A DNA stretch of 13,416 nt from Clostridiales bacterium (lineage in GTDB: Bacteria > Bacillota > Clostridia > Oscillospirales > Oscillospiraceae). Shown here one piece after another: positions 1-13,416 of this stretch. Location of the stretch: positions 1 through 13,416 of the forward strand of contig JAJQET010000048.1 of the NCBI GenBank assembly GCA_021201515.1. Direction: 5' to 3'. Made by a program: the position numbers and the translations under genes. The notes below the pieces were generated by a model, which worked only from the letters and a program-made list of their open reading frames with translations, had not been told where the DNA came from and made no database searches. The first letter of the stretch is position 1, and each line of letters starts with the position of its first letter.

Positions 1-744
1 CAGGTAGGACAGCAGGGCCCCCACCGCCTGGGTGGCCTCGGCCTTCCCCTCCGGCACGGCGGAGGGGTTTTCAAACTGCTGTTCTGTCAGTGTGCGAGCC
101 TGCTCCAGGGCGAAGCACGCCTCCGCCACCTGCTCCACCCGGCAGTCCAGCCGCTGCCGCAGCAGCTCCGTCAGGTCGGCATTGTCCAAGGCCCCCTGGC
201 TGAGGATGGCCTCTTTGGGGGCGAAGCGGCCCAGCTCGTTCATCAGATGCTCCACCGCGTCGCCGCCGGAGAAGGCGGTAGCGCTGCACTCGCCGGTGGA
301 GATGTCGCAGAAGGCCACCCCGGCCCGGCTGCCGGACAGGTAGACGGCGGCGATATAGTTGTTCTTGTCCTCGTCCAGCAGCTCGGCCTCCACCGCCGTC
401 CCTGAGGTGACGATGCGGACGATGTCCCGCTCCACAATGCCCTGGGCCTCCGCCGGGTCCTCCATCTGCTCACAGATGGCAACCTTATAGCCCTTCATCA
501 CCAGCTTGGCCAGGTAGGGCTGATAGGAGTGATAGGGCACCCCGCACATGGGCACCTTCTCCTCCTCCGGGACGTCCTTCTTCCGGTCACGGGTGGTCAG
601 GGTCAGCTCCAGCTCCCTGGACGCGATGCGGGCATCCTCGTCAAACATTTCGTAGAAGTCACCCAGGCGGAAGAACAGAATGCAGTCCGGGTACTTTTGT
701 TTCATCTCCAGGTATTGCTTTCTCATGGGGGTCAGGTCTGCCAT
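1..744 (-). CDS. mutS: DNA mismatch repair protein MutS, N-terminal part (cut by window edge)
   Basis: MutS recognises mispaired or looped bases and starts mismatch repair with MutL. I see 248 residues beginning MADLTPMRKQYLEMK, against roughly 850-900 for a full MutS, so only the mismatch-binding domain and the start of the connector domain are present. The mismatch-wedging Phe-x-Glu motif is intact (F30-Y31-E32 in GDFYEMF), followed by the family signatures VPMCGVPYHS (about 65-74) and GYKVAICEQMEDP (about 85-97). The frame is open to base 1. The ATG at 744 fits the family N-terminus, although the ribosome site upstream is weak (GAAAGCGAG). No convincing promoter lies in the 203 bases before it, so transcription probably comes from miaB. 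MutS next to MiaB is a common clostridial arrangement. Confidence 0.96.
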   Translation of the reverse strand, partial: MADLTPMRKQYLEMKQKYPDCILFFRLGDFYEMFDEDARIASRELELTLTTRDRKKDVPEEEKVPMCGVPYHSYQPYLAKLVMKGYKVAICEQMEDPAEAQGIVERDIVRIVTSGTAVEAELLDEDKNNYIAAVYLSGSRAGVAFCDISTGECSATAFSGGDAVEHLMNELGRFAPKEAILSQGALDNADLTELLRQRLDCRVEQVAEACFALEQARTLTEQQFENPSAVPEGKAEATQAVGALLSYL

Positions 745-840
745 GGTGGTTTCTCGCTTTCTAATCATGATACGTTGAGGGGCAGGATTGCCTGTAATGC
801 TGTTCAGGCAGGAAAAAGTTCCGATTTTTGCAGCCATGTG

Positions 841-909
841 TGTAGGGGCGGCCCTTGGCCGCCCGTGGAAACCGCCTGCTCACCCGGGCGGCCAAGGGCC
901 GCCCCTACA
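841..909. repeat. Head-to-head pair of REP-like hairpin units (BIME-like)
   Basis: Two perfect 25-base inverted arms (841-865 and 885-909) flank a 19-base spacer. Each arm is itself a small hairpin: a GTAG foot (842-845), then GGGCGGCC (846-853), a 3-base loop CTT, GGCCGCCC (857-864) and a final G. A GTAG-type foot beside a short palindrome, with units in inverted pairs, is the architecture of REP/BIME elements mobilised by RAYT transposases; that link is an inference. It sits 39 bases after the miaB stop. On the minus strand no T-run follows it, so it does not look like a terminator. A third unit lies at 10531. Confidence 0.8.
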
Positions 910-947
910 AAAAACAGGGATTTAGGCTTCACGCAGTAGTAGGGCCA

Positions 948-2366
948 CTAACAGCTCAACTCCCCAAACAGCGCCCAGGTGGACGACCGCACAATCTTCA
1001 CCTGCTGCCGGGTGCCAATCAGTTCCTCCGGCCCGTTCAGATGCACCAGCCGCCCGCCGTCGGTGCGGGCGGTGAGATTGTGGTTTTTGTCCTGGGTGTT
1101 CACCCCGTCCACCAGCACCCGGAGGGTCCGGCCCACATAGGCGGCGTGCTTTTGGGCGGAGATGTCGTTCTGCACCTCCAGCAGATGCTGGAAGTTGGCG
1201 CTCTTCTGCTCCTTCGGCATGGGGTCCTCCATCTCCGCCGCCGGGGTGCCCTTCCGGGGGGAGAAGATGAAGGTGAACAGGGCGTCAAACCCCACCTCCT
1301 GAATCAGGGACAGGGTTTCCTCAAACTCCTCCTGGGTCTCACCGGGGAAGCCCACGATGACGTCGCTGGTCAGCACGATGTCGGGAATCAGCGCCCGCAG
1401 CCGCCGCACCTCGTCCAGGTAGGTTTCCCGGTCATAGTGCCGGTTCATGGCCTTCAGCACCCGGCTGGAGCCGGACTGGAAGGGCAGATGAAGCTGGGGA
1501 GCCACCTTCTCGCAGGCGGCCATGGTCTCGAACAGCTCCTGGCTGGCGTCCCTAGGGTGGCTGGTCATGAAGCGAATTTGAAAATCGCCGGGGATGGCAT
1601 TGCAGGCCCGGAGGAGGCCGGCAAAGTTCATGTCCAGCCCCAGATCCTTGCCGTAGCTGTTCACGTTCTGCCCCAGCAGGGTGATGTCCTTGTACCCCTG
1701 GTCGGCCAGCTCCCGCACCTCCTGCAAAATCAGCTCCGGTGCACGGCTTCGCTCCCGGCCCCGGACGTGGGGGACCACGCAGTAGGTGCAGAAGTTGTTG
1801 CAGCCGTACATGATGGAAACCCAGGCTTTCAGCTTGCCCTGGCGCTGCACCGGCAGGCCCTCGGCGATGTAGCCGTCCACGTCCGGCGTGGCGAACACCC
1901 GCTTGCGGGAGTCCAGCACCTGCTGCAGCAGCTCCGGGAACCGGTACAGGGCGTGGGGGCCGAACACCATATCCACATAGCGGTAAGACTTGCGTATCTT
2001 CTCCTCCATGTGGGGCTCCTGCATGGCGCAGCCGCAGAGGCAGATGATTTGCTCCGGCTTGTTGCGCTTGGTGTGGGACAGGGCCCCCACGTTGCCCAGC
2101 ACCCGCATCTCCGCGTGTTCCCGGATGGCGCAGGTGTTGATGACGATGACGTCCGCATCCTCCTCGCTGGCGGTCATACCGTAGCCCATGCGGGAGAGCA
2201 TCCCCCGAATCTGTTCGGAGTCTGCCTCATTCTGCTGGCAGCCGTAGGTGTCCACCATGGCCAGCTTCGGGGCGGGGGAGGCGGCGTTTTGTGCCGCAAT
2301 CTGGTCGCAGATGGACAGCTGCCGGTCAATCTCCTCCTGGGGAATCAATACTGCCTGACGTTTCAA
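948..2366 (-). CDS. miaB: tRNA-2-methylthio-N6-dimethylallyladenosine synthase MiaB
   Basis: MiaB is a radical-SAM methylthiotransferase that converts i6A37 to ms2i6A37 in tRNAs reading UNN codons. The 472-residue protein has the usual three parts. The N-terminal auxiliary cluster domain has Cys43 (TYGCQQNEAD), Cys79 (NTCAIRE) and Cys113 (LCGCAMQ). The radical-SAM cluster motif is Cys189-x3-Cys193-x2-Cys196 (YGCNNFCTYC), followed by VVPHVRGRERSR. A C-terminal TRAM domain spans about 405-470. All six cluster cysteines are present and the length is normal for the family. The start is TTG at 2366, fixed by a perfect AGGAGG 8 bases upstream; no ATG fits better. It has its own promoter at 2420-2448 and probably leads into mutS. 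Confidence 0.97.
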   Translation of the reverse strand: MKRQAVLIPQEEIDRQLSICDQIAAQNAASPAPKLAMVDTYGCQQNEADSEQIRGMLSRMGYGMTASEEDADVIVINTCAIREHAEMRVLGNVGALSHTKRNKPEQIICLCGCAMQEPHMEEKIRKSYRYVDMVFGPHALYRFPELLQQVLDSRKRVFATPDVDGYIAEGLPVQRQGKLKAWVSIMYGCNNFCTYCVVPHVRGRERSRAPELILQEVRELADQGYKDITLLGQNVNSYGKDLGLDMNFAGLLRACNAIPGDFQIRFMTSHPRDASQELFETMAACEKVAPQLHLPFQSGSSRVLKAMNRHYDRETYLDEVRRLRALIPDIVLTSDVIVGFPGETQEEFEETLSLIQEVGFDALFTFIFSPRKGTPAAEMEDPMPKEQKSANFQHLLEVQNDISAQKHAAYVGRTLRVLVDGVNTQDKNHNLTARTDGGRLVHLNGPEELIGTRQQVKIVRSSTWALFGELSC

Positions 2367-2374
2367 ACCGGGTT

Positions 2375-2380
2375 CCTCCT
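2375..2380 (-). promoter_or_regulatory. Shine-Dalgarno site that fixes the TTG start of miaB
   Basis: AGGAGG on the minus strand, 8 bases before TTG at 2366. A 6-bp hairpin (AATGCC/GGCATT, 2386-2401, loop of 4) stands 5 bases upstream of it in the leader and could influence access to the site. Confidence 0.85.
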
Positions 2381-2419
2381 AGTGCAATGCCTGAGGGCAT
2401 TTTGTTCCATGATAAATGA

Positions 2420-2448
2420 AGTATAGCATATCCGGGAAAAAGTGACAA
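2420..2448 (-). promoter_or_regulatory. Sigma-A-type promoter of miaB(-mutS)
   Basis: On the minus strand: -35 TTGTCA (2443-2448), a 17-base spacer and -10 TATACT (2420-2425). TGC directly before the -10 gives an extended -10. The predicted start near 2413 leaves a leader of about 47 bases. The promoter lies just downstream of the lipoprotein terminator, so miaB is an independent unit. Confidence 0.85.
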
Positions 2449-2480
2449 GCACAGGGGAGAAAATTCTTGCAAAGCGCAGC

Positions 2481-2508
2481 GCCGCCCATCCCGGCTGGGA
2501 TGGGCGGC
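2481..2508 (-). terminator. Intrinsic terminator of the lipoprotein gene
   Basis: A 12-bp perfect stem, GCCGCCCATCCC/GGGATGGGCGGC with loop GGCT, starts 13 bases after the stop codon at 2522. One further C-G pair and a G-U pair extend it. The T-tract that follows on the minus strand is broken (CTTTGCAAGAATTTT), so efficiency is uncertain. Confidence 0.7.
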
Positions 2509-2521
2509 GTGCAGCGTCCGG

Positions 2522-3514
2522 TCAGGACAGGGTATACACCGAGCCGTCCGCCATCTCCCCGCAGGTGACGGCGTCCGTCTCCCTGACGTACTGCTGATTC
2601 AGCTCCGGCAGGTCGTTGTAGGAAATCAGGAAACGGGTGCTGCCGATGGCGTAGGGGCCGATGCTGTACTCTCCGGCCAGAAACACCACCCCGTCCTCCG
2701 CCAGGTAGAAGCAGCTGTCCAGCACCACATAGTCCGAGACGGCGTCGGCATAGTCGTCAAAGAGGGGATTTTCCCCAGCGGCCTGAATGTCGTCGCAGAG
2801 CTGGACAATCAGCTCAGTGCAGGTGTCCGCCACCCCGTCCCCCAGGTCGGCAAGGGTGATCCTGGCCCCGGTGCTCAGGTCGTAGCACAGGGGGGTGTAG
2901 ACCGTGCTGCCGTGGGCCCCGCCGGTGTAGGCGGCGGTCAGGGTCAGCAGGGTCAGCACCTGGCCGTCCTGCCGCTCAATCTCCACCGTCTGGCTCAGGG
3001 AGTAGGCCCCGCCGTCGCTGCCCTCCTGCCTCCGGGTCTCGGTCAGCTCGTCCGCCGAGGCCAGCAGGTCCTCCAGTTCGCTGTCCAGGTCGGCCTGGAT
3101 GGCGGCGGTCACGGCCGCGTCGCTGCAGGTCACCGTCACCACAACATAGGAGAATTCCAGCAGGGTGCTGCCGTCCTCCCCCATGCGGTCATCGGTCACG
3201 TCCACCATGGAAACCCCTTCTATCGCGGTTGACTGAGACGATTCCTCCGGTTCGGTCACGCTCTCCGGTTCCGCTTCGCTGCTTTCCGGGTCGGCGGCGC
3301 TTTCCGTTTCAGGCTCCGCGGCGCTGCTCTCCTCCGCGGCGGCGCTGCTTTCCGGCTGGGTATCGCTGCTTTCCTCCGGGGAGACGGCGCTGCTCTCCGG
3401 CTGCACCCCGCTGCTACCGGACTGGGCGGCGCTGCCCTCCTCCGTCTGACCGCCGCAGGCCGCCAGCGCCAGGGTCATGGCCAGGGCCAGTAAAAAGCAT
3501 AAAACACGTTTCAT
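2522..3514 (-). CDS. Secreted lipoprotein with DUF4163/DUF3298 (RsiV/PdaC-like) domain
   Basis: This 330-residue protein starts with a lipoprotein signal (MKRVLCFLLALAMTLALAAC) whose lipobox LAAC places the lipidated cysteine at residue 20. Residues 21-97 are a linker made almost wholly of Ser, Glu, Ala and Pro in PESSA/PEESS-like units, a spacer that would lift the domain off the membrane. Residues about 100-310 look like the DUF4163 plus DUF3298 module seen in the anti-sigma factor RsiV and the deacetylase PdaC: YTGGAHGST at 196-204, then FYLAEDGVVFLAGEYSIGPYAIGS at about 269-292. There is no transmembrane anchor or anti-sigma N-terminus, and no deacetylase domain, so this is the extracellular module alone; its ligand is unknown. 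The ATG at 3514 has AAAGGAGA upstream. It has its own promoter and terminator. Domain call from motif recognition. Confidence 0.85.
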   Translation of the reverse strand: MKRVLCFLLALAMTLALAACGGQTEEGSAAQSGSSGVQPESSAVSPEESSDTQPESSAAAEESSAAEPETESAADPESSEAEPESVTEPEESSQSTAIEGVSMVDVTDDRMGEDGSTLLEFSYVVVTVTCSDAAVTAAIQADLDSELEDLLASADELTETRRQEGSDGGAYSLSQTVEIERQDGQVLTLLTLTAAYTGGAHGSTVYTPLCYDLSTGARITLADLGDGVADTCTELIVQLCDDIQAAGENPLFDDYADAVSDYVVLDSCFYLAEDGVVFLAGEYSIGPYAIGSTRFLISYNDLPELNQQYVRETDAVTCGEMADGSVYTLS

Positions 3515-3547
3515 GGGAACGGTTCTCCTTTCCTGTGTCTTAGCCTG

Positions 3548-3553
3548 ATTATA
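3548..3553 (-). promoter_or_regulatory. Promoter -10 element of the lipoprotein gene
   Basis: A consensus TATAAT on the minus strand, preceded by TGG (extended -10), 33 bases before the ATG. No good -35 hexamer sits 16-18 bases upstream (TGGTAT is the 17-spaced candidate), so the promoter would rely on the extended -10. Confidence 0.7.
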
Positions 3554-3725
3554 CCATTCTTTTCCTGTTGATACCAGAACAATTCAATAACAAAACAGTA
3601 AAATTAGTAACACCGTCTCTTTGCAATATTTTTATCTTTTCCTTTCATTTTTGTTGATTTTTCTCCGTTATGCAGGGAATTATTTGTGTAATCCTCCAGT
3701 TTTCTGCAAGTTATCTATTTTATAC

Positions 3726-3754
3726 TTGCATTTTGGCGTCAACTCTGCTATAGT
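3726..3754 (+). promoter_or_regulatory. Promoter-like sequence for a short plus-strand RNA
   Basis: -35 TTGCAT (3726-3731), a 17-base spacer, and -10 TATAGT (3749-3754) with an extended TGC. The predicted start near 3761 is only about 11 bases before an intrinsic terminator, so the main product would be an RNA of roughly 45-50 nt. No gene follows for 350 bases. Confidence 0.55.
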
Positions 3755-3771
3755 ACTCCATAGACAAGGAC

Positions 3772-3809
3772 GTCAGCGCCGCGTAGCCGCGACGCTGGCC
3801 TTTTTGTTT
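3772..3809 (+). terminator. Intrinsic terminator just downstream of a promoter
   Basis: A stem of 12 positions (3772-3783 with 3788-3799; loop TAGC; one C/A mismatch and one G-U pair) is followed by CTTTTTGTTT. The T-run follows only on the plus strand. No plus-strand gene lies upstream in the window, so the only visible transcript it could end begins at the 3726 promoter. Confidence 0.7.
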
Positions 3810-3921
3810 CTGCCCGGCGTCTCCCCGCGCCGGGGCAGGCCCTCCGGCGCGTTGGGCGCTCCCTCCTTTCTTCCGTCCGGCGCGTCCGCTTCCTTTTCCT
3901 CCTCCATATTCCTTTTTCGGG

Positions 3922-3951
3922 AAAGCCTCCGGTGTGCGCACCGGAGGCTTT
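3922..3951. terminator. 13-bp perfect hairpin, possible bidirectional terminator
   Basis: AAAGCCTCCGGTG pairs with CACCGGAGGCTTT around loop TGCG. The A-run on one side and T-run on the other suit termination on either strand, but the runs are only three bases long. It lies 67 bases before the pyrG -35 and could insulate pyrG from the short-RNA promoter at 3726. Confidence 0.5.
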
Positions 3952-4017
3952 CACCCTGTCAGGCGGCGGGCCGTCCCCGCCTCCGGGAAAATTCAGAGGC
4001 AAAACTTACTTTCTGCC

Positions 4018-4046
4018 TTGACGAAATTTGCCGTGGCGGTTACAAT
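4018..4046 (+). promoter_or_regulatory. Promoter of pyrG
   Basis: -35 TTGACG (4018-4023), a 17-base spacer and -10 TACAAT (4041-4046). It is the only predicted promoter in the window without a TGN before the -10. The predicted start near 4053 gives a leader of about 104 bases. Confidence 0.8.
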
Positions 4047-4075
4047 AGAACTAACTGGTTTCAGGGCTGCCCCAT

Positions 4076-4125
4076 CGTTTGCGCGGAATGGACGGCGGCT
4101 TTCCGGAGGGTGGCCCGCGCAAACG
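4076..4125 (+). promoter_or_regulatory. Inverted repeat in the pyrG leader
   Basis: An 11-bp perfect stem, CGTTTGCGCGG (4076-4086) with CCGCGCAAACG (4115-4125), encloses a 28-base loop and ends 15 bases before the pyrG ribosome site. GGCGGC in the loop (4094-4099) can instead pair with GCCGCC (4125-4130), which sits at the stem's end and runs toward the ribosome site. No T-run follows, so this is not an intrinsic terminator. A regulatory role is inferred. Confidence 0.5.
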
Positions 4126-4156
4126 CCGCCCGAATGTACGAAGGAGGCACATTCTC

Positions 4157-5788
4157 ATGTCTGTCAAGCATATTTTCGTCACCGGCGGCGTGGTTTCCGG
4201 CCTGGGCAAGGGCATCACCGCCGCTTCCCTGGGCCGCCTGCTGAAGCAGCGGGGCCTGCGGGTGGCGCTGCAAAAGCTGGACCCCTATATGAACGTGGAC
4301 CCCGGCACCATGAACCCCATCCAGCACGGCGAGGTATTCGTCACCGACGACGGGGCGGAGACCGACCTGGATCTGGGCCATTATGAGCGGTTCGTGGACG
4401 AGAACCTGACGGTGAACTCCTCCGTCTCCTCCGGCAAAATCTACTCCACCGTGCTGGACAAGGAGCGCCACGGCGACTTCCTGGGCCGCACTGTGCAGAT
4501 CATCCCCCACATCACCGACGAGATCAAGAACCGTATCTACCGGATGGAGAAGGGGGAGCCCAAGGACGTCATCATCACCGAAATCGGCGGCACCGTGGGC
4601 GACATCGAATCCCAGCCCTTCCTGGAGGCCATCCGGCAGATCAGCCGGGAGCTGCCCCAGGAGGACTGTATGTTCATCCACGTCTCCCTGATCGTCACCA
4701 TCCCCGGCTCCGGGGAGCAGAAGAGCAAGCCCACCCAGCACTCCTGCAAGGAGCTGCTGAGCATCGGCATTCAGCCCGACGTCATCATGTGCCGGGCGGA
4801 TAACGCCATCGACAGCGACATCCGCCGGAAAATCGCCCTGTTCTGCAACATTCCCCCGGAGAACGCCATCGCCAACCTGACCGCCCCCATCCTCTATGAG
4901 GTCCCCCTGATGCTGGAGGAAGAGGGCCTGGGCAAGGCGGTGTGCAAGCGGCTGAAGCTGAACTGCCCGCCCCCCGACCTGACGGAGTGGAGCGCCATGG
5001 TGGCCAGGGCCAAGGCCGTGGTGGACGGCGAGGTGGAGATCGCCCTGGTGGGCAAGTATGTGGCCCTCCACGACAGCTACCTGTCCGTGGTGGAGGCCCT
5101 GACCCACGGCGGCATTGAGAACGACGTGAAAATCAAAATCCGCTGGGTGGATTCCGAGCTGGTCACAGAGGGCAACGTGGCCCAACAGCTCTCCGGCGTC
5201 CACGGCATCATCGTCCCCGGCGGCTTTGGCGACCGTGGCATTCAGGGCATGATCGAGGCCATCCACTGGGCCAGGGTGAACAACGTCCCCTCCTTCGGCA
5301 TTTGCCTGGGGATGCAGATGACGGTGGTGGAATACGCCCGCTCCATGGCGGGGCTCACCGACGCCCACTCCTCCGAGCTGTGCAAAAACACCCCTTACCC
5401 CGTCATTGACCTGATGCCGGAGCAGCGGGACGTCCACGACAAGGGGGCCAGTATGCGGCTGGGGGCCTATCCCTGCAAGCTCATCGACCACAACTCCCGC
5501 ACCTATGCCGCCTACGGGGCGGAGGTCATCTACGAGCGCCACCGCCACCGCTACGAGTTCAACAACGATTATCGGGAGATCCTCACCAAAAACGGCCTGA
5601 AGCTGGTGGGCCTCTCCCCCAACAACCGGCTGGTGGAGGTGGTGGAGGTGCCCAACCACCCCTGGATGGTGGGCGTCCAGTTCCACCCGGAGCTGAAGAG
5701 CCGCCCCAACAAGGCCCATCCCCTGTTCCGGGACTTCATCCGGGCCGCCAAGCGGTACCGGGAGGAGACTTATCATACCAACCCCTAA
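4157..5788 (+). CDS. pyrG: CTP synthase (glutamine-hydrolysing)
   Basis: PyrG makes CTP from UTP, ATP and glutamine, the last step of pyrimidine nucleotide synthesis, in the cytoplasm. The protein has 543 residues, normal for the family. The N-terminal amidoligase domain (about 1-270) opens with the nucleotide-binding loop [10 protein letters not shown] (10-19) and contains [11 protein letters not shown] (142-152). The C-terminal class I glutaminase domain (about 295-535) has the oxyanion region PGGFGDRG, the nucleophile Cys383 (GICLGMQ), and the His510/Glu512 pair of the catalytic triad (FHPEL). The frame is open further upstream to an ATG at 4079, but the start at 4157 is preferred: it has AAGGAGG 9 bases before it, and [11 protein letters not shown] is the standard family N-terminus. 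It is a single-gene unit with its own promoter and terminator. Confidence 0.98.
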
Positions 5789-5796
5789 ACAAAACA

Positions 5797-5824
5797 GCCC
5801 CCGACAGCATAAGCTGTCGGGGGC
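5797..5824. terminator. Bidirectional terminator between convergent pyrG and the lysozyme gene
   Basis: A 12-bp perfect stem, GCCCCCGACAGC/GCTGTCGGGGGC with loop ATAA. On the plus strand it is followed by CGCTTTTGATT, and on the minus strand by TGTTTTGTTT. It lies 9 bases after the pyrG stop and 31 bases from the stop of the opposite gene. Confidence 0.9.
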
Positions 5825-5854
5825 CGCTTTTGATTCTGTTTCGGCGTCCGGGGC

Positions 5855-8839
5855 TTACTGGGCGGTGATGCTCAGGCCGTCGGCGTCATAGCCGCTGGTG
5901 TAGCCACTGGAGGCGATGCAGCGGACGGTGTATTCGTAGGTGACGCCCGCCTCAGCGGTGGCGTCGGTATAGCTGGTGTCCTCCGTGTCCTCCAGCTTCG
6001 TCCAGGCGCTTTCGCCGGAGACCCTGCGGAACACCCGGTAGCCGGTGGCCCCGTCGGCGGCGTCCCATGTCACCGTCACCCCGTCGGCGGAGGCGCTGAT
6101 GCCGGTGAGGGCGGGGGTGGCTGCGTAGGTGATGCTCAGGCCGGCGGTGTCATAGCCGCTGGTGAAGGCGGTACCCTTGGAATTGATGCACCGGACGGTG
6201 TAATAGTAGGTGACGCCTGCCTGGGCGGTGGTGTCAGTGCAGCTGGTGTCGGTGGTATCCTCCACCATACTCCAGGAGCTACCGGCGGTTTTCCGGTACA
6301 GCCGGTATGTGGAGGCCCCGGTGGCGGCGCTCCACTTCACCGTCACGCCGTCAGAGGCGCCGGTGACGCTGGACAGCGCAGGGGTGGCCGCATAGGTGAT
6401 GCTCAGGCCGGTGGCGTCATAACCGCTGGTGTAGCCGCTGGAGGCGACGCAGCGGACGGTATAGCTGTAGGTGACGCCCGCCTCGGCGGTGGTGTCGGTA
6501 TAGCTGGTGGAGGTGGTATTCCCCAACTTCGTCCAGGCGCTTTCGCCGGAGACCTTGCGGAACACCCGGTACTTGGAGGCCCCGGTGGCGGCCTTCCACT
6601 CCACCGTCACCCCATCGGAAGCGCCGGTGACGCTGGTGAGGGTGGGGGTGGCCGCGCAGGCGATGCTCAGGCCGGTGGTGTCATAGCCGCTGGTGAAGGC
6701 GGTGCCCTTGGAATTGATGCACCGGACGGTGTAGTAATAGGTGGTGCCCGCCTGGGCGGTGGTGTCGGTATAGCTGGTGGAGGTGGTGTCCCCAATCATC
6801 GTCCAGGAGCTGCCGGAGGTTTTCCGGTACAGCCGATACTTGGAGGCCCCGGTGGCGGCGCTCCACTTCACCGTCACGCCGCCGGAGGTGCCCACGGCGC
6901 TGGTCAGGGCGGGGGTGGCCGCATAGGTGATGCTCAGTCCGGCGGAGTCATAGCTGCTGGTGTAGGATGTGGCGTCGGAGTTGATGCACCGGACGGTGTA
7001 GATATAGGCGGTGCCCACCTCGGCGGTGGTGTCGGTATAGCTGGTGGAGGTGGTGTCTGTCAATTTCGTCCAGGAGCCGCCGGAGACCTTGCGGAACACC
7101 CGGTACTTGGCGGCCCCGCTGACCGCCTCCCACTCCACCGTCACGCCGCTGGAGGTGCCGGTGACGCCGGACAGGACGGGGGTGGCCAGCAGGGAGGAGG
7201 TGGACAGCGTCCAGCACTGGGCGGCGGACAGGCTCTCGGTGGAGATGCGGATGTTGCTGCCGCTGGAGGAACCGGCGCTGGCCAGGCAGCACTGGGTGGC
7301 GCACTTGGGCACCAGGCAGTAGCTGTCCGACCCGGTGGGGAGGATCTGCCACAGCTGGTTATCGTCCCCGTCGTAGCTCTCCTGCCGCACGTTGGTGCCG
7401 GTGATGGGGGTGCCGTTCTTCACGGTCAGGGCCAGGCCGGAGCTGGCGTTGATGATTTTGTAGTAGCCGCTGCTGACATAGGTGATTTTGAACTTCTGGG
7501 CGGTGGTTCCGCTGCCCGACGCCAGCTCGATGTTGGCGTTGGCGGAGGTGGAATCGTCCTCAACGGCCACGGCGTTGCCCGTGTTCTGGGTGGAGTAGAT
7601 GTAATAGGAGCCGTCGCTGACGGTGGCCGCCTTGGCCAGCACGGTGAAGGTCAGGGAGAACACCGTCTCCGTCCCGGCGGAGGTGGTGGCCGTCACCTTA
7701 TACTTGTAGATGCCGGGGGAGAGCTGGCTGAACAGCAAATCGTCGTCCAGGTTGCTCAGGTCGTAGCTGGTGGCGTTGGGGGTCACGGACTCATAGCAGC
7801 CGGACACCGTATCGCCGGACTTGGTATAGCACCCTGCCGTCACCTTGGTGATGGTCTTGGAGGAGGACAGCGTCCCGGACACCGAGAAGGCGGTTCCGGT
7901 GGTCATGGTAACGGGGAGGGTGTAGCCGCTGATGGTGACGGTGGAGGTGGAGGAATCGCCGTACTTGGCCCAATAGGTGTCGGTGGCCAGCTTCTGCCGG
8001 GTCGCGTAGGATGAGGAGCTGCACCCCTCAAAGTATTTGGCGAAATAGTAGGCGGCGTTGGACGCCCCTTCCTCCGTGTTCGGCACGCTGCGGAGGTAGC
8101 TGGACGCCTTCACCGCGCTGTCCCAGAGGCCCCCCAGCTCCTGGGCGGTGAAGCCCATCTGGCCGCTGACCGTGTCGTAGTTGGAGGAGTAGAGGCTTTT
8201 CAGGTTGGTGAGCCGGGTGCTGGACCACTGGCACAGGCCATAGTTCCCTGCGGAGCTGGTAATGGTGGGGTCCAGACCGCTCTCGGTGTACATATTAGCC
8301 AGCACACCGCAGGCGGCGGCAGCGTTCAGCCCCAGGGTGTCGGTGAGGTAGGTATAGATGGTGCTCTCATTGCCGCTGGTGGATGCGGTCATGATGCCGC
8401 TCTCCCCGGAGCTGCCCTCCATCTCCGCCAGGAACACGTCCAGGACGGGCAGGTCGCCGTCCGTCAGGGTCTCCGACCGGGGGTAGGCGTCCTCATCCCA
8501 CCGGGCCTCGAACATATAGTAGTAAAAGTCGGTGTCCTCGTAGTCCACCTGGGAGCACCAGCTCACCGCCACCTCCACCGGCTCCTCCTGGCCCTCCAGG
8601 GTGAGGAAGATGGTGGCCGGGAACTGCTCCAGCAGTTCCTCCAGCGTGGGCCGCTGGGTGAAGTAGTAGGCGGTGTCCGCCCCGTCCAGGGTGGCGCCGG
8701 TGACAGCCCCCGCCGCCTGTGTCTCCGTCTGGGCGGGTTCCTCCGTGTCAAGCTCTGCGGCGGCGGCCCTGGCGGCCCCCGCCCCTGTCAGGACGGCCGC
8801 GCACAGCAGCGCCGCCCCGATGCGTTTCCATTGTTTCAT
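5855..8839 (-). CDS. Secreted tail-lysozyme protein with Ig-like, ricin-type and five FN3 domains
   Basis: A 994-residue exported protein. The signal peptide is MKQWKRIGAALLCAAVLTGA, with likely cleavage after the Ala-rich run near residue 28. Residues about 155-295 match the phage tail-lysozyme family (Phage_lysozyme2-like): GVLANMYTESGLDP, in which Glu186 is the likely catalytic acid, then NYGLCQWSS and a YFEGCSSSSYATRQ region. Residues about 297-402 look Ig-like. Residues 408-548 are a ricin-type beta-trefoil with three Q-x-W/F motifs (Q448-x-F450, Q495-x-W497, Q541-x-W543), probably glycan-binding. Residues 552-994 are five FN3 repeats ending at the stop. The inferred role is peptidoglycan cleavage at the surface or on neighbouring cells. 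No sortase or SLH anchor is seen. The ATG at 8839 has AAAGGGG 9 bases upstream; in-frame starts further upstream lack a site and would bury the signal peptide. Confidence 0.88.
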   Translation of the reverse strand: MKQWKRIGAALLCAAVLTGAGAARAAAAELDTEEPAQTETQAAGAVTGATLDGADTAYYFTQRPTLEELLEQFPATIFLTLEGQEEPVEVAVSWCSQVDYEDTDFYYYMFEARWDEDAYPRSETLTDGDLPVLDVFLAEMEGSSGESGIMTASTSGNESTIYTYLTDTLGLNAAAACGVLANMYTESGLDPTITSSAGNYGLCQWSSTRLTNLKSLYSSNYDTVSGQMGFTAQELGGLWDSAVKASSYLRSVPNTEEGASNAAYYFAKYFEGCSSSSYATRQKLATDTYWAKYGDSSTSTVTISGYTLPVTMTTGTAFSVSGTLSSSKTITKVTAGCYTKSGDTVSGCYESVTPNATSYDLSNLDDDLLFSQLSPGIYKYKVTATTSAGTETVFSLTFTVLAKAATVSDGSYYIYSTQNTGNAVAVEDDSTSANANIELASGSGTTAQKFKITYVSSGYYKIINASSGLALTVKNGTPITGTNVRQESYDGDDNQLWQILPTGSDSYCLVPKCATQCCLASAGSSSGSNIRISTESLSAAQCWTLSTSSLLATPVLSGVTGTSSGVTVEWEAVSGAAKYRVFRKVSGGSWTKLTDTTSTSYTDTTAEVGTAYIYTVRCINSDATSYTSSYDSAGLSITYAATPALTSAVGTSGGVTVKWSAATGASKYRLYRKTSGSSWTMIGDTTSTSYTDTTAQAGTTYYYTVRCINSKGTAFTSGYDTTGLSIACAATPTLTSVTGASDGVTVEWKAATGASKYRVFRKVSGESAWTKLGNTTSTSYTDTTAEAGVTYSYTVRCVASSGYTSGYDATGLSITYAATPALSSVTGASDGVTVKWSAATGASTYRLYRKTAGSSWSMVEDTTDTSCTDTTAQAGVTYYYTVRCINSKGTAFTSGYDTAGLSITYAATPALTGISASADGVTVTWDAADGATGYRVFRRVSGESAWTKLEDTEDTSYTDATAEAGVTYEYTVRCIASSGYTSGYDADGLSITAQ
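5858..7186 (-). repeat. Array of five tandem FN3 repeats
   Basis: Five units of 88-89 residues, each starting ATPxL: residues 552-640, 641-729, 730-817, 818-906 and 907-994. They fall into two subtypes. Units 3 and 5 have YRVFR.VSGESAWTKL and a short loop ASSGYTSGYD. Units 2 and 4 have YRLYRKT.GSSW and INSKGTAFTSGYD. Unit 1 has the first half of the unit 3/5 type and a second half like units 2/4. Confidence 0.9.
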
Positions 8840-8888
8840 TTCACACATCCCCTTTCGGTTCTCTTGGTGTATTCTGCGTCCTGTTTTT

Positions 8889-8927
8889 AGTATAACATCT
8901 TTTGTAACTATTTGCAACCTTTGTTAC
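8889..8927 (-). promoter_or_regulatory. Promoter of the lysozyme gene with direct repeats over its -35
   Basis: On the minus strand: -35 TTGCAA (8912-8917), a 17-base spacer, and -10 TATACT (8889-8894) with an extended TGT. Read on the plus strand, the -35 region holds three similar hexamers, TGTAAC (8903-8908), TGCAAC (8913-8918) and TGTTAC (8922-8927), spaced 10 and 9 bases apart. Such repeats over a -35 could be a regulator site. Confidence 0.7.
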
Positions 8928-8971
8928 CATTTTTTCTTTCTCTTTTTTTCTGAAACGCCCGGTTTTCCTCC

Positions 8972-9000
8972 TTGACATTGGGGTTCAGGTATGCTACCAT
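8972..9000 (+). promoter_or_regulatory. Promoter of the MATE gene and its leader
   Basis: Consensus -35 TTGACA (8972-8977), a 17-base spacer, and -10 TACCAT (8995-9000) with an extended TGC. The predicted start near 9007 gives a leader of about 120 bases, which contains a hairpin, a terminator and the ribosome site. Confidence 0.8.
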
Positions 9001-9006
9001 GAATAC

Positions 9007-9097
9007 GCTTGCACGGAGGGCATATCATTCGGCAGAAATGATACGCCGGATAAGGCTACAGGCTGAAACGCCTGTACTTTATCCGGCGTTCTTTTTT
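9007..9097 (+). ncRNA. Attenuator/riboswitch candidate, guanidine-IV (mepA) type, upstream of a MATE gene
   Basis: Two hairpins occupy the leader. The first is a 7-bp stem TATCATT (9023-9029) with AATGATA (9037-9043) and loop CGGCAGA. Its loop bases CGGC (9030-9033) can pair with GCCG (9045-9048), forming an H-type pseudoknot one base from the stem. Those same GCCG bases are part of the 5' arm of the terminator at 9043-9089, so pseudoknot and terminator exclude each other. This gives a direct route to a ligand-dependent ON switch. The guanidine-IV (mepA motif) class is known upstream of MATE genes in Clostridia and works through a terminator; I infer this class from context and layout, without a covariance search. 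Confidence 0.68.
9043..9097 (+). terminator. Intrinsic terminator inside the MATE leader (attenuator)
   Basis: ACGCCGGATAA (9043-9053) pairs perfectly with TTATCCGGCGT (9079-9089). The stem continues through a small bulge to ACAGGC/GCCTGT (9058-9063 with 9070-9075) around loop TGAAAC. TCTTTTTT follows directly. It lies between the promoter and the ribosome site of the MATE gene. Confidence 0.9.
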
Positions 9098-9127
9098 CGG
9101 GGCGGGACACTATCAGGAGGGATTTTT

Positions 9128-10450
9128 ATGGACTTTTTGACCGGAAACATCAGAACGATCTACTTCAAATACCTGGCCATGGCTTTTGGCGGTTCTCTGA
9201 TCTCTTCCGTTTACGGCATTGTGGACATGGCCATGGTGGGCAACTATCAAGGGCCGGACGGCACCTCCGCCCTGGCCATTGCCGCACCGCTGTGGAACAT
9301 CATTTTCAGCCTGGGGATGCTGATGGGCATCGGCGGCGCCGTCCTCCTCAGCACCCTGCGGGGCAAGGGGCCAGGAAACGAGGCGGCGTCCAACCAGTTC
9401 TTCACCGCCGCCGTCATCGGCGGGGCCTTCCTGTCCGTTGTGGTGTGGGTCGGGCTGATCTTCTTTGACGACCAGCTGCTGACCCTCTTTGGGGCCACGG
9501 AGGAGCTGCTCCCCCTGGTGAAGCAGTACATCCTGCCCATCAAATTCATGGTGCCCGTCTACCTGTGGACCCAGCTGCTGTCCGCCTTCCTCCGCAACGA
9601 CGGCGACCCCGGCCTCTCCACAGCGGCGGTGTGGATCGGCTGCCTGTTCAACATCGTGGCGGATTACTTCTTTATCTTCGTCCTGGACTGGGGGCTGTTC
9701 GGCGCAGGCTTCGCCACCATCCTGGGGACGATCCTCTCCCTGCTCATCATGCTGGCCCACTTCTTCGGCAAAAAGAACACCCTCCGGCTGGTGCGGCCTG
9801 TGGCCCTGGGGGCCAAGCTGTGGAAGATCACCGTCACCGGCTTCTCCACCTTCTTCGTGGACGTGGCCATGGGCATCCTGACCATCCTGTTCAACCGGCA
9901 GATTCTGGCCCTGCTGGGCGCGAACGCCCTGTCGGTCTACGCCATCATCATCAACATCAGCACCCTGGTCCAGACCTGCGCCTACAGCATCGGCCAGGCG
10001 GCCCAGCCCATCCTCTCCACGAACTTCGGCGCGGGGCAGGGGAACCGCATCCGCAGGGTGCTGGTCTATGCGTTGGGGACCGTGGCGGCCCTCAGCGTCA
10101 TCTGGACGGTGGTGGACCTGGTCTTCCCCAACGCCCTGGTGCGCCTCTTCATGACCCCCACAGAAGAGATTCTGTCCATCGCACCCACCATCATCCGGCG
10201 GTACAGCATTTCCTACCTGCTGCTGCCCTTCAACATCTTCTCCACCTATTACTTTCAGGCCCTGATGCGGCCGGGCACCGCCTTCGCCGTCTCCGTGTCC
10301 CGTGGGGCGGTGATCAGCGGGGCGCTGATCTACCTGCTGCCGGCGGTGGCGGTGGCGGACGCCATCTGGTTTGCCATGCCTGTCACTGAGCTGATGGTGG
10401 CCGTTTATGTGACAGTGATGATGGTGCGGTACACCAGGGAGCTGACCTGA
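9128..10450 (+). CDS. MATE family multidrug/cation efflux transporter (MepA-like)
   Basis: A 440-residue integral membrane protein of normal MATE length, with about 12 hydrophobic segments in two similar halves. MATE pumps export cationic compounds in exchange for Na+ or H+. Family features seen are the first-helix acidic residue Asp33 (VYGIVDMAMVG), RNDGDP (156-161) after helix 4, NIVADY (175-180), QAAQPILSTNFGAG (290-303) in the second half, and Glu421 in a late helix. The frame is open upstream to 8972, but the start at 9128 is chosen because AGGAGGG ends 6 bases before it and the upstream stretch is the structured leader. The gene stands alone, divergent from the lysozyme gene, and appears controlled by the attenuator at 9007-9097. 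If that is a guanidine-IV switch, guanidinium or a related cation is the likely inducer and possible substrate. Confidence 0.93.
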   Translation: MDFLTGNIRTIYFKYLAMAFGGSLISSVYGIVDMAMVGNYQGPDGTSALAIAAPLWNIIFSLGMLMGIGGAVLLSTLRGKGPGNEAASNQFFTAAVIGGAFLSVVVWVGLIFFDDQLLTLFGATEELLPLVKQYILPIKFMVPVYLWTQLLSAFLRNDGDPGLSTAAVWIGCLFNIVADYFFIFVLDWGLFGAGFATILGTILSLLIMLAHFFGKKNTLRLVRPVALGAKLWKITVTGFSTFFVDVAMGILTILFNRQILALLGANALSVYAIIINISTLVQTCAYSIGQAAQPILSTNFGAGQGNRIRRVLVYALGTVAALSVIWTVVDLVFPNALVRLFMTPTEEILSIAPTIIRRYSISYLLLPFNIFSTYYFQALMRPGTAFAVSVSRGAVISGALIYLLPAVAVADAIWFAMPVTELMVAVYVTVMMVRYTRELT

Positions 10451-10530
10451 GGGCAAGGTCGTCAAATTAAGGGCCTTGCACTCCCAGGTAAGGCTTTCTC
10501 TTAAAATTATGACTGTGTTTCCGTCTTTCA

Positions 10531-10554
10531 GTAGGGGCGCACAGTGTGCGCCCG
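10531..10554 (+). repeat. Single REP-like hairpin unit
   Basis: The same 24-base architecture as the units at 842-865: GTAG foot, GGGCGCAC (10535-10542), loop AGT, GTGCGCCC (10546-10553) and a final G. Compared with those units, two base pairs of the stem are changed on both sides, so pairing is kept. No inverted partner lies nearby. Confidence 0.75.
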
Positions 10555-10821
10555 GCCAACCTTTCCTCCTTAGAAAAGGTAGTTGAAAAGAACCAGGTTT
10601 TTCCTCAAGGTGGGCCCCCTTGGATAACATTCGTTATCGAGACTTTGCCCGGCCTTCCCTGCCGGGAAGCGGCATTTCCGCTTCGCTCCCTATGCCGAAG
10701 GCGGGCGGAACGAGCAATTTTGTTACCCGATGGTCGTGGAAATCTGACTGTACGGCTGCGTTGTACTCCTCAACTCAGAATAGATTGCACCTTGAGTTGA
10801 TGATATTACCCTGAACGCAAA

Positions 10822-10852
10822 GGCGGCGCACTCTCCGCCGGAGTGCGCCGCC
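10822..10852. terminator. 12-bp GC hairpin, possible minus-strand terminator
   Basis: GGCGGCGCACTC (10822-10833) pairs perfectly with GAGTGCGCCGCC (10841-10852) around a 7-base loop. On the minus strand TTTGCGTT follows, a poor T-tract. No minus-strand gene is seen to its right, so it may instead be a structural part of an RNA or a repeat. Confidence 0.4.
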
Positions 10853-10894
10853 GGGGCACGGCCTGTGCCCCACACCTGGGCAGAGGGCCGCAAG

Positions 10895-10960
10895 CCTGAC
10901 CCTCCGCCCGGCGTTTCGCCGGCCCGCAGCCTGTTTTGGGGCTGTGGGCGGCGGCTCAGG
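10895..10960. other. Nested inverted repeats, possible branched RNA structure
   Basis: CCTGA (10895-10899) can pair with TCAGG (10956-10960), and CCGCCC (10904-10909) with GGGCGG (10946-10951). Inside these lie GGCG/CGCC with loop TTT (10910-10920) and CAGCC/GGCTG (10927-10931 with 10940-10944). Together they could form a three-way junction on either strand. High GC makes chance pairing likely, so this is only a candidate. Confidence 0.35.
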
Positions 10961-11068
10961 AAGGAGGATAAGCTGTTCCCGCTGTCCACGTTCAGTATAT
11001 GCAGGGGTGAGAGGTTCATACCGGCTTTTTTTGCCAGTTTTTGGCTGCAACTTTTTCGAGTTTCCCCC

Positions 11069-11097
11069 TTGCATCCCGGCGTTTGCCATGCTAAAAT
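11069..11097 (+). promoter_or_regulatory. Promoter of the DEAD-box helicase gene
   Basis: -35 TTGCAT (11069-11074), a 17-base spacer, and -10 TAAAAT (11092-11097) with an extended TGC. The predicted start near 11104 leaves a leader of about 170 bases. Confidence 0.78.
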
Positions 11098-11108
11098 AAA
11101 ATATGTAT

Positions 11109-11147
11109 AGCCTTTTGCCCGAAAAAGGCTTCTTTTCTGTTTCTTTT
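11109..11147 (+). terminator. Terminator hairpin at the 5' end of the helicase leader
   Basis: AGCCTTTT (11109-11116) pairs with AAAAGGCT (11123-11130) around loop GCCCGA, followed by TCTTTTCTGTTTCTTTT. It begins about 5 bases after the predicted transcription start, so full-length helicase mRNA needs read-through. Confidence 0.75.
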
Positions 11148-11196
11148 CCGGCGGGGGCTGCCCCGCCGGGCGGAGTCATGCGGCCTGTCTCCGCCC
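11148..11196 (+). promoter_or_regulatory. Two overlapping GC hairpins in the helicase leader
   Basis: CCGGCGGGG (11148-11156) pairs with CCCCGCCGG (11161-11169). GGGCGGAG (11168-11175) pairs with CTCCGCCC (11189-11196). They share bases 11168-11169, so the two full stems cannot both form. They lie between the leader terminator and the ribosome site. A regulatory role is inferred. Confidence 0.45.
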
Positions 11197-11261
11197 GTTC
11201 CCTGCCTGGACAAGCGCTTTCGCTCCGGGTGGCCGCACCACTATTTGATTCCATTTTAAAG

Positions 11262-11266
11262 AAGGA
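11262..11266 (+). promoter_or_regulatory. Shine-Dalgarno site that fixes the TTG start of the helicase
   Basis: AAGGA (in AAAGAAGGATG) lies 9 bases before TTG at 11276. The ATG overlapping its end (11266) opens another frame that stops after about 25 codons. Confidence 0.75.
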
Positions 11267-11275
11267 TGTATTTCA

Positions 11276-13416
11276 TTGACCTTTCAAGACTGTCACTTAA
11301 TCGAACCTATTCTCCGTGCCCTGACCGAGCAGGGCTACACTGAACCCACCGCCATTCAGGCGGGGGCCATCCTCCCCGCCCTGGAGGGGCGGGATATTTT
11401 GGGCACCGCCCGCACCGGCACCGGCAAGACCTGTGCCTTTGCCACCCCCATTTTGCAGCTGCTGAGCCAGCGGCCTGCCCAGGGTCGGCCCATTCGGGCG
11501 CTGGTGCTGACCCCCACCCGGGAGCTGGCCATTCAGAACCAGGAGTGCTTTGAAGCCTACGGCAAGTATCTGAACCTGAAAAGCGTCGTCATCTTCGGCG
11601 GCGTGGGCCAGAACCCCCAGGTGGAGGCCATCCAGTCCGGGGCGGACATTCTGGTAGCCACCCCCGGCCGCTTGGCCGACCTGTACCAGCAGGGGCTGCT
11701 GGACCTGTCCCATCTGGAGATTTTCGTGCTGGACGAGGCCGACCGTATGCTGGACATGGGCTTTATCCACGATGTGCGGAAGATTCTGAAATGGCTGCCC
11801 AGAGAGAAACAGACCCTGTTTTTCTCCGCCACCATGCCGGAGGAACTCACCGACCTGGTGGGCAGCCTGCTCCACAAGCCCGTCCGGGTGTCGGTGGACC
11901 CGGTGAACTCCACCGTGGACGCCATTGAGCAGCAGGTCTACAAGGTGGACAAGGGCAACAAGACCCGCCTTCTGGTGCGGCTGCTGGCCCAGAACGACTG
12001 GCCCTCCGTGCTGGTGTTCACCCGGACGAAGCACGGGGCCAACAAGGTGTCCAAGGAGCTGGAGAAGGCGGACATTCCCGCCTCCGCCATCCACGGCAAC
12101 AAGAGCCAGACTGCCCGTCAGGCCGCCCTGTCCGGCTTCAAGGCCGGGGCGCTGCGGGTGCTGGTGGCCACTGACCTGGCCGCCCGCGGTCTGGACATTG
12201 AGGAGCTGGCCTGCGTCATCAACTATAATCTGCCGGAGGTGCCGGAGACCTACGTCCACCGCATCGGCCGCACCGGCCGGGCGGGCCATGGCGGCATCGC
12301 CATCTCCTTCTGCGACTTTGACGAGCAGCCCCTCCTCCACGACATTGAAAAGCTCATCCGCAAGACCGTCCCGGAGGTGAAGGGCCACCCCTTCCCCATG
12401 CAGCAGACTCAGCCCAGCCCCAGGGACAAGCAGGGCCGCATCATCAACGCTGAGGACCAGGAGGCCCGTGAAGCCGCCCGAAAGAGCGCAAAGGAGCGCC
12501 GGGAGGCCCAGACCGCCCAGCAGCAGGCCACCCCGGCTCAGCCGGAACAGAAGCCAGCCAAATTGGCGGAAAAACCGGCGAAGTCGGAAAAAAAGCAGGC
12601 CGCGAAGCCGGAAGCTGCCCCGTCCAAGCCGGTGCAGACCCCGCCGGAGGCCCCCGCCAAAGCCTCCGGCAAGAAAAAGAAGGGGAAGCAGAGCGTCTCC
12701 ACCGCCTCGGTGTCCGAGCTGTTCGGGGTGGACATCCCCGGCCTGCTGCCTGACCCGGTGGAGGAGCCGCCTGCGCTGGAGGAGAAGTTCGACTCCTCGG
12801 ACATCCTCCACCGCAAACCCAAAAAACCGGAGCGGCGGGTGGTGCCCTCCCTCAGCAGCGTCTCCCTGTTGCCCAACATTGAGCTGAAGGAGACCTTCGG
12901 CTCCAAGCTGCGGGAGGACAGCGCCACCTTCTCCCCCACAGGCGGGGCGCTGGACGCCACCGACCGGATGTTCAAAACGAAAACCGTCCTGCCGGAGCAG
13001 TACGGCGGAAAAAAACGGAACCCGGACGCCGAGGGTACCTCCGGTAAAAAGAAGAAAAAGTCCGGCCAGACCGAGGTGTCGTCCAAATCCGCTGACCGGT
13101 CCGCCGGGAAACCGTCCTCCGCCCCGGCCCAGTCCGGCAGCAAGGCGTCCGCCGGCCAGAGCGGGAAAAAATCCGCCCAAAAAAGCGGCGGAAAGAAGCC
13201 TGCCGCAAGCGCGCAGGAGCCGGCGGAAAAGTCCGCCAAACAGGGCAAAAAGGGGTCAAAGCAGCCCAAAAAAGGCAAGTCCGGCCAGAAGTTATCCGCC
13301 GATGTGGATAACCGTGTGCAAAAGTTTGCCAAGCCCCACTACCCCGCCGACAGCGGGATGCGCTACTCCCGCACCAAGGACTCCACCGAGCAGGCCAGCC
13401 TGATGAAGCCCTACTA
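11276..13416 (+). CDS. DEAD-box ATP-dependent RNA helicase with long basic tail (cut by window edge)
   Basis: A superfamily 2 RNA helicase that unwinds short RNA duplexes with ATP, typically in ribosome assembly, mRNA decay or cold adaptation. 713 residues are visible with no stop. The core (about 1-370) has every motif: Q motif GYTEPTAIQ (20-28), Walker A ARTGTGKT (45-52; Arg where Gln is usual), PTRELA (80-85), TPGR (129-132), DEAD (153-156), SAT (184-186), VLVFTRTK (245-252), ATDLAARGLDI (298-308) and HRIGRTGRAG (328-337). From about 373 on, the protein is Lys/Ala/Ser/Pro-rich low-complexity sequence, interrupted by a less biased segment at about 474-580. The start is TTG with AAGGA 9 bases upstream; MTFQDCHLIEPILRAL fits the family N-terminus. 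The tail resembles basic RNA-binding tails of CshA/RhlE-type helicases but is longer. Confidence 0.95.
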   Translation, partial: MTFQDCHLIEPILRALTEQGYTEPTAIQAGAILPALEGRDILGTARTGTGKTCAFATPILQLLSQRPAQGRPIRALVLTPTRELAIQNQECFEAYGKYLNLKSVVIFGGVGQNPQVEAIQSGADILVATPGRLADLYQQGLLDLSHLEIFVLDEADRMLDMGFIHDVRKILKWLPREKQTLFFSATMPEELTDLVGSLLHKPVRVSVDPVNSTVDAIEQQVYKVDKGNKTRLLVRLLAQNDWPSVLVFTRTKHGANKVSKELEKADIPASAIHGNKSQTARQAALSGFKAGALRVLVATDLAARGLDIEELACVINYNLPEVPETYVHRIGRTGRAGHGGIAISFCDFDEQPLLHDIEKLIRKTVPEVKGHPFPMQQTQPSPRDKQGRIINAEDQEAREAARKSAKERREAQTAQQQATPAQPEQKPAKLAEKPAKSEKKQAAKPEAAPSKPVQTPPEAPAKASGKKKKGKQSVSTASVSELFGVDIPGLLPDPVEEPPALEEKFDSSDILHRKPKKPERRVVPSLSSVSLLPNIELKETFGSKLREDSATFSPTGGALDATDRMFKTKTVLPEQYGGKKRNPDAEGTSGKKKKKSGQTEVSSKSADRSAGKPSSAPAQSGSKASAGQSGKKSAQKSGGKKPAASAQEPAEKSAKQGKKGSKQPKKGKSGQKLSADVDNRVQKFAKPHYPADSGMRYSRTKDSTEQASLMKPY
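12392..13416 (+). other. Low-complexity basic C-terminal tail region of the helicase
   Basis: Residues about 373-713+ of the helicase. Two Lys/Ala/Pro-rich stretches (about 398-473 and 578-675, with KKKKGK and KKKKK clusters and repeated SGKK/SGGKK units) flank a segment at about 474-577 with normal composition (SVSELFGVDIPGLLPDPVEE, SSVSLLPNIELKETFGSKL, TGGALDATDRMF). The tail is probably disordered and binds RNA. The composed middle segment suggests a short interaction motif. Confidence 0.7.

Follow-up and report, generated by a model that had tools for sequence, protein, structure and literature searches.

We consider it likely that the leader of a MATE family efflux transporter gene from Clostridiales bacterium (assembly GCA_021201515.1, contig JAJQET010000048.1, positions 1-13,416, forward strand) acts in cis as a regulatory RNA that terminates transcription, and that it is most probably a riboswitch belonging to an orphan class, so far undescribed, by which efflux pumps are turned on. 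This assignment is based on sequence comparison. To a more specific proposal we give an even chance: the candidate class would sense a toxic or drug-like gut compound directly via a small 5'-terminal aptamer (stem P1, the internal loop GGAG/GGAUAA, and hairpin P2), which is sometimes present in tandem, and would switch on pumps of the MATE, MFS, ABC, and SMR families in Bacillota, Bacteroidota, and other phyla. The analysed stretch of 13,416 nucleotides is referred to as the window; its features are on the plus strand unless stated otherwise.

A sigma-70-type promoter (8972-9000) consists of TTGACA, a spacer of 17 nt, and TACCAT, with TG ahead of the second hexamer. Two promoter-like sites (one per strand) were found in the region 8840-9200, compared to 0.3 in shuffled sequences. 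The promoter is followed by a 7-bp hairpin with the loop CGGCAGA (9023-9029/9037-9043) and by GCCG (9045-9048), which starts one base beyond the stem of this hairpin. The terminator hairpin (9043-9089) has its 5' arm at 9043-9063, the loop UGAAAC at 9064-9069, and its 3' arm at 9070-9089, and is followed by the T-rich tail TCTTTTTT (9090-9097). The ribosome binding site AGGAGGG (9115-9121) precedes the regulated MATE gene (9128-10450, ATG at 9128), which codes for 440 aa matching PF01554 (E 5.1e-35); the best NCBIfam match of the protein, PRK09575, is under its cut-off. An initial annotation had reported the promoter, the 7-bp hairpin, GCCG, a terminator of about 20 bp with a T-run, and the ribosome site of the MATE gene, and all of these were found as described. 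Its general idea also stands, namely that a cis-acting leader structure competes with an intrinsic terminator before a MATE gene and that stabilisation of this structure should turn the gene on.

With a single bulged C, the terminator hairpin has 20 pairs and an energy of -33.8 kcal/mol. It was not reported by a simple terminator scan. The folding of the whole leader is exceptionally stable (z -6.8; none of 200 shuffles was equally good), which is mostly due to the terminator; the first 50 nt of the leader alone are unexceptional (z -1.66; 16 of 200 shuffles were equally good). As judged by eye in the listed leaders, the apical terminator stem varies with its pairing kept, and the loop UGARAY recurs. 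The minus strand codes at 5855-8917 for a large protein that looks secreted and in which a phage tail lysozyme domain is combined with ricin-type lectin domains and with repeats resembling fibronectin type III.

The order of elements in the motif is a short 5' segment, CGGAGGG, a variable hairpin, CYGGATAAG, and a final segment; the latter is complementary to the short 5' segment, with which it pairs as stem P1. The spacing from GGAGG to GGATAAG ranges from 13 to 38 nt among the matches listed. In the window, the 5' strand of P1 (9011-9014) comprises G9011, C9012, the bulged A9013, and C9014; it is near the predicted RNA 5' end and covaries across relatives with the P1 3' strand GGC (9054-9056). 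The internal loop has GGAG (9015-9018) on its 5' side and GGAUAA (9048-9053), which also belongs to the terminator 5' arm, on its 3' side. Between these is hairpin P2 (9019-9047), in which GGC 9019-9021 pairs with GCC 9045-9047 and encloses the 7-bp hairpin (9023-9043). In alignment A5, GGA and GGAUAA are invariant and the last G of GGAG is conserved in at least 90%, an invariance that is partly by construction because most of these letters sat in the search patterns. For A5, 64 rows were picked at <82% identity, of which 61 diverse rows were aligned; the window replaced its congener L040, and the loci L122, L152, and L196 are omitted.

P1 was evaluated on 142 distinct matches, collapsed from 157, which originate from named as well as other genomes, with a few loci giving two matches and one locus (L122) being out of register. 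At least 3 bp are formed in 110 of the 142 distinct matches listed, while 1000 shuffles of the partners gave a mean of 42 and a maximum of 59; as in all of the shuffle tests on P1, the difference is inflated by kinship among the sequences. The corresponding numbers are 93 of the 125 matches listed without Bacteroidota (32.5 shuffled, maximum 46) and, with one match per distinct combination, 30 of 54 listed (12.1 shuffled, maximum 21). The helices across the matches listed include, among others, CAU/AUG, UGC/GCA, CAC/GUG, and GGU/ACC. By the simple rule applied, 32 of the 142 matches listed have fewer than three pairs. All 17 Bacteroidota matches are paired, as are 17 after shuffling, so that they add no covariation; there is too little variation among them to test P1.

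In A5, 86.2% of the P1 cells are paired compared to 79.6% after shuffling (none of 500 shuffles was as high), and sliding the partners by 1-3 columns reduces the value to at most 42.7%. A P1 register with one bulged base is also common (80.0% compared to 73.5% shuffled). Two of the five measures were no better than shuffles for the plain register (300 and 118 of 500 as high), and the same holds for two measures for the bulged register (391 and 77 of 500 as high). The window's own P1 is short, with 3 bp followed by a U-U mismatch.

The base of P2 is paired in 98.4% of the A5 cells. Its third pair, which is outside the search pattern, is CG in 34 rows, UG in 17, UA in 7, and another combination in 2, with one gap. 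Six close leaders show covariation at the outer pairs of the upper P2 stem. Locus L051 from a genome of the same genus (G194) has the core GGAGGTTCT in place of GGAGGGCAT and altered P2 letters, and may be decaying. By eye, the P2 loop region (9030-9033) is UUCR and the terminator loop (9064-9069) is UGARAY, GNRA-like, in many leaders from Clostridia; UUCR of the P2 loop may in principle pair with UGAR of the terminator loop.

The position of the motif relative to the promoter was analysed for 141 matches. A -10 box with at least 5/6 consensus letters ends 10-20 nt before CGGAGG in 63 of the 141 matches listed (shuffled mean 10.9, maximum 17), and in 56 of these 63 the distance is 12-14 nt. 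When the whole 50 nt upstream are considered, a box of 5/6 occurs in only 80 of the 141 matches listed and is absent in 61. The window's own -10 box has 4/6 letters and is thus outside the 63; it is at 13 nt from CGGAGG. The usual distance between a -10 box and the transcription start places the RNA 5' end at the P1 5' strand. We thus predict that the RNA begins at P1, which leaves no space for a hairpin 5' of P1.

The GGAUAAG strand and the P1 3' strand are part of the terminator 5' arm, and the aptamer and the full terminator are thus mutually exclusive. In the window, the aptamer as drawn has -12.1 kcal/mol compared to -13.7 kcal/mol for the best alternative fold of the same stretch and -33.8 kcal/mol for the terminator. 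Because the terminator is far more stable than the drawn aptamer, the default state should be OFF. When the ligand is absent, the transcript would adopt the terminator fold and stop near 9097. A putative ligand would bind to the internal loop; the likeliest candidate is a small, toxic molecule that the pumps export. Ligand-bound P1 and loop would then retain the GGAUAAGGC strand, the terminator would be unable to close, and the MATE gene would be transcribed. Binding of the ligand while the RNA is being transcribed would, we infer, shift the balance toward read-through. Terminator-controlling ON riboswitches likewise rely on two structures competing for one strand; this is their usual design, with which guanidine-IV is contrasted in the available part of the report on that class (PMC7736828). 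A possible precedent for an RNA which senses xenobiotic-like compounds is the yjdF riboswitch, which, as described in the accessible part of the publication (PMC4793209), binds diverse azaaromatic compounds and occurs almost only with yjdF genes. It differs from the present motif in this gene context, and the motif lacks an Rfam riboswitch match.

The distribution of the motif was analysed with two covariance models, R1, which was built from 7 leaders, and R2, which covers only the aptamer and does not require a terminator. At an E-value of 0.001 or better, R1 had matches in 65 of 400 genomes from the family and in 14 of 391 from the class; each count includes the own genome. A search of named genomes, using a pattern that covered the core together with a portion of the terminator, resulted in at least 120 loci from at least four phyla. 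The 120 loci listed are from Bacillota (95, including 88 from Clostridia), Bacteroidota (19), Spirochaetota (1), and Melainabacteria (1), with 4 lacking a phylum assignment. For 108 of these 120 loci, a transporter match is found within 3 kb downstream (103 MATE, 3 ABC, 2 MFS). A cytidylate-kinase-like gene precedes the MATE gene in L224, and a MarR-like gene precedes the ABC gene in L209. Among the 12 listed loci without a transporter match, the sequence ends within 150 nt past the motif in three (L135, L147, L211), and L120, L129, L136, L205, and L221 also belong to these 12; the next gene codes for a B3/4-domain protein in L133, a DUF554 protein in L164, a GNAT protein in L128, and an HD-domain protein in L117. 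On the protein level, MatE was assigned by Pfam to 94 of the 115 downstream proteins of the 120 loci listed (5 are without an ORF).

In a phylum sample of 299 genomes, R2 had matches in five genomes besides the own genome. The sites L239, L240, L241, and L244 each carry a terminator and precede genes for a Bcr/CflA-type MFS transporter (L239), an MFS-like protein (L240, with a similar one in L241 from the same genus), and a Qac-type SMR transporter (L244), all of these NCBIfam assignments being below the cut-offs. L242 and L243 were not considered further as R2 matches, as on visual inspection they resemble coding sequence and have no terminator.

The occurrence of the motif is patchy even among close relatives. 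R1 matched in 4 of the 10 same-genus genomes listed, and of 15 MATE-homologue loci from the family, R2 matched two (L012, L015) with E-values under 0.01, with a weak match in L016 (E 0.25) and none in L010 and L011, which are close orthologues (60 and 59% identical). There is a single R2 copy in the own genome, the assembly of which is 62% complete. A gut or rumen source is indicated in many (uncounted) of the 80 record titles listed, and the collection itself is possibly biased alike. The leader had no match in the viral contigs and phages searched. The only plasmid match (OY725839.1:45891-45972; 81.7% identity, distant mode, E 1e-3) is in an unannotated plasmid record of 100,723 bp which is labelled Subdoligranulum variabile.

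In Ligilactobacillus saerimneri (L133:4844-5545), the motif precedes a gene for a stand-alone B3/4-domain protein. A canavanyl-tRNA editing protein has a B3/4 domain. This editing protein features in the available part of a paper on guanidine riboswitches (PMC10018355).

No Rfam 15 family matched at the motif with its gathering score in the window and in 22 motif loci, which were scanned as sets of 4 and 18. Away from the motif, the Rfam matches in the set of 18 were to a tRNA in L225 and to a cobalamin riboswitch at the end of L175. Permissive Rfam scans of three motif regions returned chance-type families and no riboswitch family. No description of the motif was found in the openly accessible literature searched; one may exist in supplementary files or subscription papers. 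The best reading is that the motif represents an orphan riboswitch candidate class before efflux pumps, with its structure and its link to termination resting on comparison. With reservations, it combines what is generally expected of a riboswitch, a conserved covarying structure and an expression platform before several classes of genes.

One RNA element before genes from four pump families would make it possible to ask which compounds are exported by gut bacteria, since its ligand should indicate natural substrates of the MATE exporters, which are largely uncharacterised. The element is short and widespread and has a terminator at its end, so that simple read-through assays could be used to search for the ligand. 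If it proved to be a drug or a bile-related compound, gut chemistry would be tied to efflux by RNA alone.

The specific structure that had been proposed in the initial annotation is a pseudoknot between CGGC in the loop of the 7-bp hairpin and GCCG. This pairing can be drawn in the window. A BLASTn search with the leader found 6 of 150 family genomes, own genome included, and GCCG is unchanged across these six leaders. The congener keeps the loop letters CGGC; of the other four leaders, which are more distant, two have CGCU in their place, one has CGUG, and one has CAGA. Among the 74 matches listed with a homologous loop, the CGGC/GCCG pairing is possible in 4. Loop pairing in any 4-nt register was likewise found for 4 of these 74, compared to 2.6 after shuffling (maximum 6), which is at chance level. 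Conservation of the CGGC/GCCG pairing among related leaders, by which the pseudoknot was to be judged as specified beforehand, is thus absent. An H-type pseudoknot with 0 and 1 linker nt around a 7-bp stem is sterically unlikely. We thus reject this pseudoknot and consider the pairing a chance feature of the window's lineage.

The same RNA might be targeted by a regulatory protein or by another RNA that blocks the terminator, rather than by a small molecule, which we consider rather unlikely. Nowhere does the comparison separate a protein from a small molecule, and a protein might bind at the conserved loop. On the other hand, a single core is common to several phyla and to pumps from different families, no shared partner gene was seen adjoining the motif in an unsystematic look, and Rfam did not report a known antiterminator target at the motif. 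By eye, the motif does not match the antiterminator targets ANTAR hexaloops, RAT, PyrR loop, and T-box.

It is improbable that the motif is a guanidine-IV riboswitch or its variant Gd4v, and the leader is probably not the guanidine sensor that was first suggested. The MATE gene, the terminator, and the occurrence in gut bacteria are in line with such an assignment; an intrinsic terminator before an exporter gene, as present in the window, is a trait common to other riboswitch classes as well. According to the available parts of the publications, guanidine-IV (GGAM-1, mepA motif), which is common in Firmicutes, resembles the motif in being a terminator-linked ON switch with MATE genes among its targets (PMC7736828), has two kissing hairpin loops (PMC7736828, PMC11611296, PMC12186494), and has a proposed bound form that includes the terminator stem (PMC7736828). 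The positions which matter, as given in the same parts, are A29-U72, C30-G71, and G77 in the RNA from C. botulinum (PMC11611296) and G66, U67, and G72 in that from L. lactis (PMC7736828). Unlike guanidine-IV, the motif has a P1 that is predicted to be 5'-terminal and a conserved internal loop, one strand of which is taken from the 5' arm of the terminator itself, and with the predicted RNA start at P1 there is no space for a guanidine-IV-type 5' hairpin. As to kissing loops, our rejection is limited to the CGGC/GCCG version; the P2 loop and the terminator loop may pair as UUCR/UGAR. The guanidine-IV loop-2 word GU...AG is present in 13 of the 142 second hairpins listed and is absent from that of the window.

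The negative Rfam result alone proves nothing with respect to guanidine-IV, because the guanidine-IV-type locus L089 also escapes Rfam; seven other sugE loci have a match to Rfam guanidine-I. Since Rfam cannot decide on guanidine-IV, a model (R3) was used that was built from three sugE leaders (L232-L234) of one Clostridia family, the assignment of which to guanidine-IV is derived from published loop positions rather than from a curated model. R3 matches L089, which has the same sequence as its training row L232. It does not match the window or 18 motif loci at an E-value of 1, and R1 and R2 do not match the guanidine-IV-type leaders L089, L090, and L232-L234. These results, together with the different layout, argue against the guanidine-IV membership that had been proposed. 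In a search of plasmids for SugE proteins, aimed at further guanidine-IV leaders, the genes listed were for the most part qac and sugE from enterobacteria and staphylococci.

Gd4v is an orphan guanidine-IV variant of gut bacteria which, in the accessible part of its description, is reported as extremely similar to guanidine-IV, as preceding a transaminase gene (PRK07324) in over half of the cases, with MATE and GNAT among the other genes, and as having an apical terminator hairpin (PMC9788692). Gut bacteria, the apical terminator hairpin, and the MATE and GNAT genes are shared with the motif when compared to the description in that paper. The window and many of the listed leaders (uncounted) have such an apical hairpin, but any long terminator would show one. 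Unlike Gd4v, which was compared by its description alone, the motif shows no transaminase context among the Pfam families listed (25 of 28) for the 115 downstream proteins, which include no aminotransferase, and its layout is not that of guanidine-IV.

Ribosome-mediated attenuation by a leader peptide, with GGAGGG as Shine-Dalgarno site, is very improbable. GGAGGG is similar to a ribosome site, and a frame that comes from upstream is open into the MATE gene in the window. However, a start codon 3-12 nt past GGAGG with at least 5 codons is found in 40 of the 142 matches listed compared to 50 after shuffling (with ATG only: 14 compared to 20.6), and the core is present in Bacteroidota, too. That the leader is a plain terminator which lowers expression, with an incidental 5' part, is hardly credible. 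The terminator exceeds the other folds in stability by far, but the covariation of P1 and the conservation of the GGAG strand reach outside of it.

In the window, GGAUAA...CAGGCUGA resembles a stretch of the peptidyl-transferase region of 23S rRNA. This resemblance was dropped, as the hairpin stem varies among the leaders and the loop letters differ.

Returning to the riboswitch reading which we prefer, R2 detected tandem aptamers before a single terminator in 8 of 36 loci, with their starts 56-63 nt apart; these 36 loci were chosen to include tandem-looking ones, and 8 of 36 is thus not a frequency. The tandem aptamers are at L217:336-448, L132:725-833, L148:4805-4913, L161:6691-6798, L174:4466-4574, L186:648-768, L216:4379-4497, and L131:780-889. 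Both aptamers of a tandem might compete for one terminator 3' arm.
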